A DNA stretch of 59,537 bases, taken from contig JAAEYW010000020.1 of the NCBI GenBank assembly GCA_018223185.1, positions 1 through 59,537 on the forward strand. Reading direction: 5' to 3'. The translations under genes were made by a program, and so were the position numbers. Position 1 is the first letter of the stretch; each line of letters opens with the position of its first letter. This DNA comes from Oceanospirillales bacterium. Its GTDB lineage: Bacteria; Pseudomonadota; Gammaproteobacteria; Pseudomonadales; Balneatricaceae. Under the pieces are notes generated by a model. It made no database searches, had not been told where the DNA came from, and saw only the letters and a list, made by a program, of their open reading frames with translations. Below are positions 17,618 through 59,537 of the stretch, in pieces.

Positions 17618-17978
<361 letters not shown>

Positions 17979-46193: not shown

Positions 46194-46755
46194 GGCGATA
46201 AGCCATCGCGGCGAGTACCCAGAGGGTAAGCTAACGCCGCTCCTACACAACATATCAACACCGTAGGAGCCCCGTCCCGGGGCGATAAAACCATCGCGGC
46301 AAGTACCCATAGGGCATGCTAACGCCGCTCCTACACAACACATTACACCCCGTAGGAGCCCCGTCCCGGGGCGATAAAACCATCGCGGCAAGTACCCATA
46401 GGGCATGCTAACGCCGCTCCTACACAACACATTACACCCCGTAGGAGCCCCGTCCCGGGGCGATAAAACCATCGCGGCAAGTACCCATAGGGCATGCTAA
46501 CGCCGCTCCTACACAACACATTACACCCCGTAGGAGCCCCGTCCCGGGGCGATAAAACCATCGCGGCAAGTACCCATAGGGCATGCTAACGCCGCTCCTA
46601 CACAACACATTACACCCCGTAGGAGCCCCGTCCCGGGGCGATAAAACCATCGCGGCAAGTACCCATAGGGCATGCTAATGCCGCTCCTACACAACATATC
46701 AACACCGTAGGAGCCCCTTCCAGGGGCGATAAACCATCGCGGCGGGCACCCTCTG
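46194..46755. repeat. 89-bp tandem array of paired REP hairpins
   Basis: Six head-to-tail units start at about 46194, 46281, 46370, 46459, 46548 and 46637, with a partial unit at about 46725. The four central units look identical. Each unit holds one hairpin cgtaggagccccgtcccgggg-cgat and one inverted partner (atcgcggcaag...gccgctcctac). An 89-base period is not divisible by three, so the overlapping open frames on the minus strand are not coding. It lies between the pmm stop and the RAYT gene. Confidence 0.93.
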
Positions 46756-57397: not shown

Positions 57398-57751
57398 TTA
57401 ACACTCCAACTTCGAATCCTGGCTTTTAATCAATCCTGTAAGCATTTTCTGGATATCGACGAGCTCATCGCACCAGTGATTACCCGCTTCAGAAGAAACA
57501 TAACCTATTCGCTGACCGATATAGACCTGGGTTTTAAGTTCTCCAGCAGAGCCCCGGGCGTAGAGATAAAACTTCCTCTTATCCCTAATCGAACCCCGCT
57601 CAAATCCCTCAGCTATATTACTGGGAATAGACAAACTACTCCGTGTAATCTGATCCTTGAAACCATAGTCACGACAATCAGCCATTGATTTATAGACTTC
57701 ACAACTCAAGCGACAAGAACGTTTCCATACGTCAAGATTTTCAAACCCCAT
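57398..57751 (-). CDS. Four-helix-bundle protein (S23/IVP family)
   Basis: 117-residue protein with the 23S-intervening-sequence-protein pattern. It has FENLDVWKRSCRLSCEVY, then GFKDQITRSSLSIPSNIAEGFER and KFYLYARGSAGELKTQVYI. Members form pentameric helical bundles. Many are encoded in rRNA insertions or in repeat-rich regions, and their function is unknown. The ATG at 57751 has GGAGG upstream, and four further codons upstream are in frame. It is surrounded by REP clusters. Confidence 0.88.
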   Translation of the reverse strand: MGFENLDVWKRSCRLSCEVYKSMADCRDYGFKDQITRSSLSIPSNIAEGFERGSIRDKRKFYLYARGSAGELKTQVYIGQRIGYVSSEAGNHWCDELVDIQKMLTGLIKSQDSKLEC

Positions 57752-57774
57752 AACAACCTCCATGTTTTAAATGC

Positions 57775-58103
57775 AGATGTCCGAACGCAGCCTTCGGCGC
57801 TTTTCCGCTTTTCGAATCCAGTCTCTTCCTGACCTCGAACAAGCGCAGCGCTCGGACTACAGACTTCAGCTTTGCAACCTTATCACCCCGGGTACCCAGA
57901 GGGCATGCTAACGGGGCCCCCACAAGGCTGAATGTATTGTGGGAGCGGCATCTTGCCGCGATAAAACCATCAGCAAGCACTAGGTAAATCTATCGCCCCG
58001 GGGCGTGCCTCCCACAAGACCTGCTCTTCCTGACCCGGACAAGCGCCGCGCTCGGGCTACAGACCTGGGCTTTTCAGCCTTATCGCCCCGGGACGGGGCT
58101 CCT
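57775..58103. repeat. REP cluster left of the IS110 element
   Basis: Contains two cgaacaagcgcagcgctcg-type elements (about 57838 and 58040), several REP hairpins and a 56-base block (57942-57997) found again without visible change at 59482-59537. It ends in the REP hairpin atcgccccgggacggggctcct, which is interrupted by the IS. Confidence 0.85.
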
Positions 58104-58144
58104 TGTATATTTAACCTTAACGATTATTTATCTTTAATAGTCGT

Positions 58145-58275
58145 TTCTGGGGAAGCCGCTCGCTCCTTGAAGCAGGTTTATACTGACTTCGTTTGTAGAG
58201 GGGCTCCCCACCTCATTGCTTAGTTCGAAGAGTATCATGAAGCTAGTACCAGACTTCGCATCACAAGGTTGAGCC
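58145..58275 (+). ncRNA. Predicted IS110 bridge RNA (boundaries approximate)
   Basis: Two guide-bearing loops in order. First loop, closed by cttcg/cgaag (58187-58191 with 58226-58230), contains ggggctcc (58200-58207). This equals the REP sequence left of the insertion through the C of the CT core. Second: agagtatc (58229-58236) equals the element's right end through the core C (59338-59345). Then comes an internal hairpin (gaag...cttc) and acaagg (58263-58268), the reverse complement of ccttgt at the left junction. A 5' stem-loop near 58149-58170 precedes them. The arrangement copies known IS621 bridge RNA. The right-target guide is weak (ttag at 58220-58223). Confidence 0.7.
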
Positions 58276-59336
58276 AGCATAAAGTTCGAGGTTGGGGAAC
58301 CAGAGACCATTTTATCAATTTCACGTTACGGAGTCTGCTTGTGGGTACTTTTTCCGGCATTGATATCAGTGCAAGATCCTTTGATCTTGTTATTAAAAAT
58401 GAAAACGTTATCGGTAAAGCACAAACATTTAAGCAGCAGCCTGATGATTTTGAGCGAGCTGCCAAAATATTAAACAAGAAGAACGTAATACTTGTTGTGA
58501 TGGAAGCAACTGGTATTTATCACTTGGATTTAGCAGTTTATCTTACAAATGCAGGTATTGCGGTTGCTGTGATTAATCCGCTGAGCAGTAAGCGATTTGC
58601 TCAGCTGAAGTTATCACAAATCAAAACCGATGCAGCTGATGCCACTTTATTAGCAGAGTATGCCGAGGTTATGAAGCCTGCGCCTTGGACGCCCCCAAAG
58701 CCCGAGTATATGGCACTCAAAGATATTGGGCGCCAGATTAATCGTCTGACAAAAGATAAAGTAAAAGCTAAGAATCGGCTACATGCCCTCCAATCTAAAA
58801 CGAGTCCCGCTATTCTGATTGAAGACCTGGAAGAGAGCATTACCCTTTATGAACGTCGTATAGATCGTCTATCTACAGCGGCACTAAAGCTCATCCAGGA
58901 GGATAAGGAACTGGCGCTAATATTTGAGTGCATGATGGAGGCTAAGGGCATTGGACAGAGCAGTGCTCTCGCTATTCTTGCCGAATTTGTTGTCCTGCCT
59001 AAGGATATGAAAGCAAAGCAGGTGACCCGATACAGTGGATTAGATATACGAGTCTGCCAATCGGGAAGCAGTGTGCGAGGCGGCTCTCGTATCAGTAAGG
59101 CGGGAAATGCATACTTAAGAACTGCACTTTATATGCCTGCGTTATCAGCGTCTCGCCACGATGATAACGCACGTAAATTTAGAGAGCGGTTAATCTCAAA
59201 AGGAAAAACCAAGATGCAGGCAAATGTCGCGATTATGCGTAAGTATCTGACAGGCTTGTGGGTCGTTTACTGTCAATGCCATGCGTTTAACTCTGATAAA
59301 TTGTTCAACTTTGATGAAAAAAGCCTTGAGCATTAA
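58269..59336 (+). CDS. IS110-family transposase
   Basis: 355-residue frame. The real start is probably the GTG at about 58340, giving VGTFSGIDIS, because IS110 transposases begin at this motif. The DEDD (RuvC-like) domain has GIDIS, MEATGIY and IKTDAADATLLAEY. A coiled linker follows, then the Tnp20 domain with AKGIGQSSALAILAE, YSGLDIRV and GSRISKAGNAYLRTALY, in which a serine is expected to act catalytically. The codons before the GTG overlap the end of the predicted bridge RNA region. The gene appears intact. Confidence 0.93.
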   Translation: MSQHKVRGWGTRDHFINFTLRSLLVGTFSGIDISARSFDLVIKNENVIGKAQTFKQQPDDFERAAKILNKKNVILVVMEATGIYHLDLAVYLTNAGIAVAVINPLSSKRFAQLKLSQIKTDAADATLLAEYAEVMKPAPWTPPKPEYMALKDIGRQINRLTKDKVKAKNRLHALQSKTSPAILIEDLEESITLYERRIDRLSTAALKLIQEDKELALIFECMMEAKGIGQSSALAILAEFVVLPKDMKAKQVTRYSGLDIRVCQSGSSVRGGSRISKAGNAYLRTALYMPALSASRHDDNARKFRERLISKGKTKMQANVAIMRKYLTGLWVVYCQCHAFNSDKLFNFDEKSLEH

Positions 59337-59346
59337 CAGAGTATCT

Positions 59347-59537
59347 ACAGGGGGTAATGTGCCGCGAGGGCGCGCCTCCCACAAAGCTTGCTCTTCCTGA
59401 CCCGGACAAGTGCAGCGCTCGACAACAGACCTCGGCTTTTTAGCCTTATCGCCCCGGTCTCCTCGGTACGGATGTACTGTAGGAGCGGCATCTTGCCGCG
59501 ATAAAACCATCAGCAAGCACTAGGTAAATCTATCGCC
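59347..59537. repeat. REP cluster right of the IS110 element (continues past the window)
   Basis: Begins with acagg, the severed other half of the interrupted REP. Then gccgcgagggcgcgcctccc, a cccggacaagtgcagcgctcg element and REP hairpins follow. It ends with the 56-base block also found at 57942-57997. Confidence 0.85.

Follow-up and report, generated by a model that had tools for sequence, protein, structure and literature searches.

We describe an IS110-group insertion sequence that very probably moves by bridge-RNA-guided recombination, reading a repetitive extragenic palindromic (REP) sequence of its host through a left target guide (LTG) at positions 58159-58167 of the window, the whole stretch of 59,537 nucleotides that was analysed. 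The assignment rests on sequence-level evidence, namely the anatomy of the element, covariation in the fold of its upstream RNA, covariation of the guides with target and donor, a predicted promoter at the circle junction and the REP context of the insertion. Bridge RNA has been described for IS621 of Escherichia coli (Durrant et al. 2024, PMC11208160; Hiraizumi et al. 2024, PMC11208158), and, judged by its sequence, the element is a new member of this IS621-type, bridge-RNA kind within the IS110 group. The original prediction for this DNA had proposed an IS110 element with a 5' bridge RNA, a target-binding loop followed by a donor-binding loop as in IS621, and guides that can be read directly; that core reading is upheld, with the LTG moved to another segment.

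The element and its recombinase

A CT core is found at both ends of the element, and the same layout recurs in relatives, which were themselves found by searching for these ends; the limits first proposed, 58104-59346, fit when one core is counted (Table 1). The recombinase matches DEDD_Tnp_IS110 (E 2.1e-26) and Transposase_20 (E 1.6e-17) in Pfam, with PF01548 and PF02371 both above cut-off, representing a DEDD RuvC-like domain and a Tnp domain with the catalytic serine. Residues D8, E55, D97, D100 and S241 are invariant across ten aligned recombinases (that of the window and nine relatives) and align with the catalytic residues of IS621, to whose recombinase (8wt6) the protein is related, as it is to that of ISCro4 (9t56). 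The element lacks the features of the IS1111 group: its long non-coding region (58104-58340) lies upstream of the recombinase gene, not downstream, and no inverted repeat of at least 12 nt, a limit above any 11-nt repeats, joins the two ends. Protein and DNA searches alike found it as a single copy in its 43-contig draft genome. A minus-strand open frame of 121 aa at 57398-57763 presumably resembles a four-helix-bundle (23S intervening-sequence) protein.

Table 1. Features of the element and its insertion site, in window coordinates
Feature	Position	Strand	Basis or remark
Left target (LT), half of the interrupted REP, GGGGCTC; with upstream bases ATCGCCCCGGGACGGGGCTC	58095..58101	+	6-bp palindrome
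Left CT core	58102..58103	+	junctions compared with relatives
Whole IS110-group insertion sequence, 1,243 bp counting one core	58104..59346	+	homology to relatives, including multi-copy elements
-10-like hexamer TATATT in left end	58106..58111	+	pairs with 59326-59331 in predicted circle; spacer 17
5' stem-loop of bridge RNA	58119..58145	+	MFE and centroid fold, single-sequence prediction only
Aligned bridge-RNA region	58146..58310	+	alignment, consensus fold, pair counts, covariance model
Target-binding loop basal stem, 5' strand	58149..58157	+	pairs with 58202-58209
Left target guide (LTG) CTCGCTCCT; last six bases GCTCCT match target	58159..58167	+	best covariation with LT
Inner hairpin of target-binding loop (helix 2)	58169..58190	+	6/7 pairs changed on both sides
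Right target guide (RTG) TGTAG, complementary to CT-ACA of right target	58194..58198	+
Putative target-loop handshake base A, complementary to donor T59344	58199	+	invariant in alignment
Target-binding loop basal stem, 3' strand	58202..58209	+	overlaps 58200-58207; no flank covariation
Donor-binding loop basal stem, 5' strand (helix 3)	58217..58227	+	pairs with 58270-58279; 7/9 pairs changed on both sides
Left donor guide (LDG) AGAGTATC	58229..58236	+	matches right end of element
Inner hairpin of donor-binding loop (helix 4)	58239..58257	+	8/8 pairs changed on both sides
Putative right donor guide (RDG) ATCACAAG, discontiguous complement of CT-TGTAT	58260..58267	+
Putative donor-loop handshake base G, complementary to target C58101	58268	+	by analogy with IS621
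IS110 recombinase CDS, 331 aa, GTG start	58341..59336	+	start by homology
-35-like hexamer TTGAGC in right end, inside CDS end	59326..59331	+
Left donor (LD) AGAGTAT, right end of element	59338..59344	+
Right CT core	59345..59346	+	junctions compared with relatives
Right target flank ACAGGGG	59347..59353	+

Relatives and the fold of the predicted bridge RNA

Relatives were gathered from whole genomes, a plasmid and named genomes. Once seven duplicate loci had been removed, 54 loci of at least 39% identity remained; omission of 11 whose left end could not be recognised (copies truncated, altered or lying at contig ends) left 43, and merging of ten extra copies from multi-copy genomes into one representative each left 33 representatives. 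A sister copy in genome G732, L040, has an intact bridge RNA and no recognisable left end, the outer part of which it has apparently lost.

The consensus fold of the 33 sequences comprises four helices and 32 pairs, with 93.6% of cells pairing. Its two loops, in the order target then donor, lie within the upstream non-coding region, and the LTG, RTG, LDG and RDG all fall within internal loops. Changes on both sides were seen in 25 of the 32 pairs (4/8 in the basal stem of the target loop), and doubly changed cells numbered 119 against 29.8 in shuffles (0/500), counts that lean towards the fold since it was derived from the very alignment that was counted; shifting the pair partners by one to three columns destroys the signal. 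Folding the non-coding region as a single sequence gives weak support (z -1.67 and -0.87). A covariance model built here, with the window in its training set, and run on 64 sources returned 20 matches up to E 1. L040 scored high (173.8 bits), but a sister of this copy had been used for training; loci outside training scored 142 bits (L094), 71.6 bits (L079) and 32-39 bits (L105, L005 and L087), with 93.5 bits each for L057 and L070, both cut at a contig end. Searches against Rfam gave no bridge-RNA-like match for the element, around which the matches were three unrelated ones at chance level (E 2.7-7.1). The only Rfam model to reach its gathering threshold in the window was RNase P, a bacterial class A RNA at 17618-17975 on the minus strand.

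Covariation identifies the left target guide

Guide-target and guide-donor pairing is accompanied by covariation that is strong for the LTG and weaker for the RTG and LDG. We scanned 7-base columns starting at 58110-58322, comparing matches to each element's own left flank with matches to the flanks of the other elements across the 33 representatives. The column starting at 58159 averaged 5.39 matches of 7 with the own flank against 3.34 with other elements' flanks, an excess of 2.06 where the second-best scanned column reached 0.43. Its 178 matches of 231 compare with a permutation mean of 112.1 (sd 7.7), and none of 20,000 permutations was as high, a test that, like the other permutation tests of guide-flank covariation used here, ignores relatedness. 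On a recombinase tree, which is a quick one with several weak forks (L081 and L106 have broken frames, and L106 sits on a long branch), LTG positions 4-6 underwent 12 parsimony changes and the target positions 14, and the guide agrees with the flank at positions 4-6 in 31 of 33 representatives, the exceptions being L041 and L080. A strict paired test on the tree had just three starred independent pairs to draw on, which all pointed one way and were too few to reach significance. The ten merged extra copies likewise match their own flank at LTG positions 4-7.

Identity of the LTG with the target, counted at positions 1 to 9 in turn, holds in 6, 16, 26, 32, 32, 33, 33, 33 and 31 of the 33 representatives, from which we take the working guide to span roughly four bases and the CT, position 3 contributing more weakly. 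The same counts, with their low identity at positions 1-3, led us to reject a need for seven pairs with the left target. The window copy mismatches its own flank at exactly these outer positions (CTC against GGG), and alone it would therefore not have identified the LTG. The same is seen in an element of the same genus, in G008, 89% identical over the first 124 bases, whose four left ends at different places carry the LTG CCCGCTCCT beside GGGGCTC, GAGGCTC, GCGGCTC and GGGGCTC, leaving positions 1-3 largely unmatched.

Right target guide and donor guides

The original prediction had found only a 3-base match for the right target guide and had left that part open; we place it at 58194-58198, where GTAG, or TGTAG, is complementary to CTAC(A). 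Where the right flank could be used (30 representatives), the GTAG bases always form standard or wobble pairs, and the base after them is identical in 26; the covariation signal is modest, with 84 of 20,000 permutations reaching it, and copies in G732 carry a CGTAG guide beside ACA flanks. The adjoining A58199 would, by analogy with IS621, act as a handshake base.

The three strings on which the original prediction was built are present in the sequence (ggggctcc at 58200-58207, agagtatc at 58229-58236 and acaagg at 58263-58268), and the latter two retain their donor roles. The string agagtatc, equal to the right end (59338-59344 plus C), is the LDG: it pairs with the right end in all 31 representatives that have one, with the first position identical in 23 and a G:T wobble (guide G, end A) in eight and the remaining positions identical, and its covariation with the right end was equalled in 4 of 20,000 permutations. 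L074 has an altered right end, CTAAGTAT, with a matching altered LDG, TAAGTATC; L068, the second of two copies in Methylohalomonas lacus and one of the merged extra copies, has a mutated LDG (GCGTATC for GAGTATC) with an unchanged right end, and is possibly a natural mutant that reads its own end poorly. The acaagg string was rightly described as complementary to the left junction, C-CT-TGT. Its first five bases, ACAAG, are complementary to CT-TGT and present in most aligned rows, and would read the donor, so that the following G would read target position 7 as a handshake base; the full RDG would pair with CT-TGTAT in split fashion. These RDG and handshake assignments are modelled on the IS621 structure (PMC11208158), as RDG and left end are too conserved for covariation testing.

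Junction promoter and proposed mechanism

When the two ends are joined, a sigma70-like promoter (a TTG-bearing -35 and a TAT-bearing -10) appears in all 31 elements with both ends, with a spacer of 17 nt in 30 of them and 18 nt in L033; a consensus promoter scan is blind to such a promoter. A comparable promoter at the circle junction is described for IS621 (PMC11208160). We propose that excision would yield a circular element whose joined ends form this promoter (TTGAGC, 17 nt, TATATT), from which a bridge RNA of roughly 200 nt would be transcribed out of the left end. Its donor-binding loop would grip the circle junction through the LDG and RDG, its target-binding loop would grip a host REP through the LTG (effectively GCTC-CT) and RTG, and the recombinase would then exchange strands at the CT core.

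Alternative readings

The bridge RNA might be real history, with the insertion in the window no longer mobile. The single copy in the draft genome and the outer LTG mismatches of that copy with its own flank would fit such a loss; yet the recombinase frame is open with all catalytic residues kept, the cores, guides and junction promoter are intact, and the related element of the same genus has its four left ends in different places. We consider a dead copy unlikely, at about one chance in several.

The original prediction had assigned the left target guide to ggggctcc, which at this insertion matches all seven left-flank bases plus the core C, better than the homologous LTG does. The segment would also match the four G008 flanks at 7, 6, 6 and 7 of 7 bases, and GGGGCTCCTAC is frequent as a REP tail of the host. 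Across the 33 representatives, however, the column at 58200 has no covariation with the flank: own matches averaged 2.82 against 2.96 for other flanks, and its 93 of 231 matches fall below the permutation mean of 97.4, with 18,181 of 20,000 permutations as high. Six of the eight bases (58202-58207) pair with 58152-58157 in the consensus fold as part of the 3' strand of the basal stem, half of whose pairs changed on both sides, so that the letter match, though real, is best read as a coincidence with a stem. Folding thus separated the predicted segments, with the donor guides in internal loops and ggggctcc mainly on the basal stem. Siblings that keep the segment beside other flanks, the observation that the original prediction had set against itself, were found both in G008 (GGGGCTCC beside GGGGCTC, GAGGCTC and GCGGCTC) and in L041 (beside CACACTC); the segment is identical in L041 and the G008 copies and mostly NNGGCTCC or NNGGCCCC in other rows. 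In the IS621 layout as described (PMC11208158), an LTG would moreover sit on the opposite side of the loop. Nor do the two left guides share a pattern of seven bases plus C followed by a mismatch at the T, as had been suggested: the window LTG ends in CT, and in IS621 the LDG is given as 8 nt and the LTG as 9 nt including both core bases (PMC11208158). We regard ggggctcc as a highly improbable guide.

It is just as improbable that the 5' region serves solely as a structured mRNA leader, or as a transposase-regulating sRNA, with incidental guide matches and a protein that chooses the REP. For the REP-inserted IS110-family element ISPpu9, a leader of 244 nt and a pair of regulatory sRNAs are reported (PMC8450116). 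A leader, however, has no need of guide bases that lie unpaired in loops and that, through 12 parsimony changes, match the flank in 31 of 33 representatives, and the layout corresponds to the IS621 bridge RNA guide by guide.

The REP target and its possible tracking across hosts

We return to the bridge-RNA reading with the LTG at 58159-58167 and the sites that it would address. The sequence ATCGCCCCGGGACGGGGCTC followed by CTACA, interrupted here, is intact at other REPs of the host genome. The motif GCTCCTACA occurs 51 times in that genome against 24 for the reversed control, only about a twofold excess, and allowing one mismatch it occurs 34 times within the window against 11.5 in shuffles. 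Among host REPs, the bases before GCTCCTAC differ (mostly GGG, GCC, GCA, GCG and GAG), with GCTCCTACA recurring, and the constant tail is the 9-nt stretch that the guides read, GCTC-CT-ACA. Adjoining this tail on the outside is the variable palindrome arm, which is probably read poorly or not at all, and guides that read the constant part of the REP would account for the three outer mismatches of the window LTG. On the same contig, a tandem REP cluster at 46239-46714, with GCTCCTACA and the inverted GCTCCTACG in alternating orientation about every 89 bases, is a BIME-like array.

Palindromic context recurs among the relatives. At 15 of 29 sites a palindrome of at least 5 bp lies within the 24 bases that precede the junction (four of the 33 representatives have less than 24 bases of left flank and were left out), against 0-3 of 28-29 at six control distances; the remaining 14 sites have no 5-bp palindrome there, and the G008 left ends sit in REP-like sites. 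We then counted REP tails in 11 genomes, comparing genomes with one another, since the reversed control exceeds the pattern GCTCCTACR in some of them (165 against 61 in G030, 164 against 32 in G626 and, slightly, 261 against 234 in G793). CGACCTACR peaks in G732 (651; 21-37 in the others), where the element carries that guide. CACCCTACR peaks in G247 (155), again with an element of that guide, but high counts also occur in G008 (106) and G732 (84), where the elements have other guides. GCTCCTACR is highest in G793 (234), G747 (149) and G000 (94), all with GCTC guides, and scarce in G235 (10), G626 (32) and G008 (32) despite GCTC guides there. These counts back host tracking for some guides, not for all.

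Taken together, we lean a little towards the view that the element represents a REP-tracking IS110 subfamily, in which the recombinase, the donor guides and the core would have stayed nearly fixed while the target loop was rewritten about a dozen times to follow the REP tail of the current host. The effective left guide would have been shortened to the constant tail, tolerating the variable arm and allowing one guide to serve several REP classes in a genome.

Relation to known systems

With IS621, as it is described, the window element has in common a left-end bridge RNA with a target-binding then a donor-binding loop, handshake bases and a CT core; a 9-nt LTG ending in CT, the RTG GUAG and an 8-nt LDG; a split RDG ending in CAAG with a right donor CT-TGTAT; and a sigma70-like circle-junction promoter and a REP target. 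In contrast, the recombinases are distant (phmmer E 4e-34) and the target sequences differ, the effective LTG match is about 4 nt plus CT in the clade of the window element as against seven plus CT in IS621, and the RDG would have a 1-nt bulge where IS621 has two flipped bases.

ISPpu10, ISPpu9, ISPa11 and ISRm19 are reported as IS110-family elements inserted at one fixed REP point (Tobes and Pareja 2006, PMC1525189) and are set beside the window element here by description. ISPa11 is classed under IS1111, and in that group the longer non-coding stretch usually follows the gene (PMC11187229). The seekRNA element ISEc21 (Siddiquee et al. 2024, PMC11187229), for which natural reprogramming is reported, is like the window element of IS110 type with an upstream non-coding region and with both target strands matched, but it is described as targeting a conserved site inside IS3-family transposase genes, and its transposase cluster is longer, at 345-385 aa. 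Closer at hand is L041, on plasmid pVb1796 of Vibrio alginolyticus, with a recombinase 71% identical to that of the window and a nearly identical bridge RNA; it differs in its LTG, CCCGCTCCT, and lies beside CACACTCCT with no 5-bp palindrome before the junction.

Already published are REP insertion by IS110-family elements (PMC1525189) and the bridge RNA or seekRNA itself (PMC11208160, PMC11208158, PMC11187229). A literature search whose scope stopped short of subscription papers and some preprints returned the two 2024 Nature papers alone as joining bridge RNA with repetitive extragenic palindromic sequences, and no paper title naming the clade of the window element; single-protein scans of genome-contig and viral-contig collections confirmed no relative.

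Implications

Matching guides by eye to a single insertion can pick the wrong segment, and caution is needed where only one copy is at hand. Bridge-RNA recombinases are candidates for use in large DNA insertions. In this subfamily dozens of natural guide-target pairs can be read off the raw sequence, covariation having settled where the guide lies. These pairs suggest that natural re-targeting to REP-like host repeats has occurred repeatedly, with a left guide that is in effect shorter; if the effective LTG is indeed short, the targets GGGGCTCCTACA, GCCGCTCCTACA and GCAGCTCCTACA would be used equally with one RNA.
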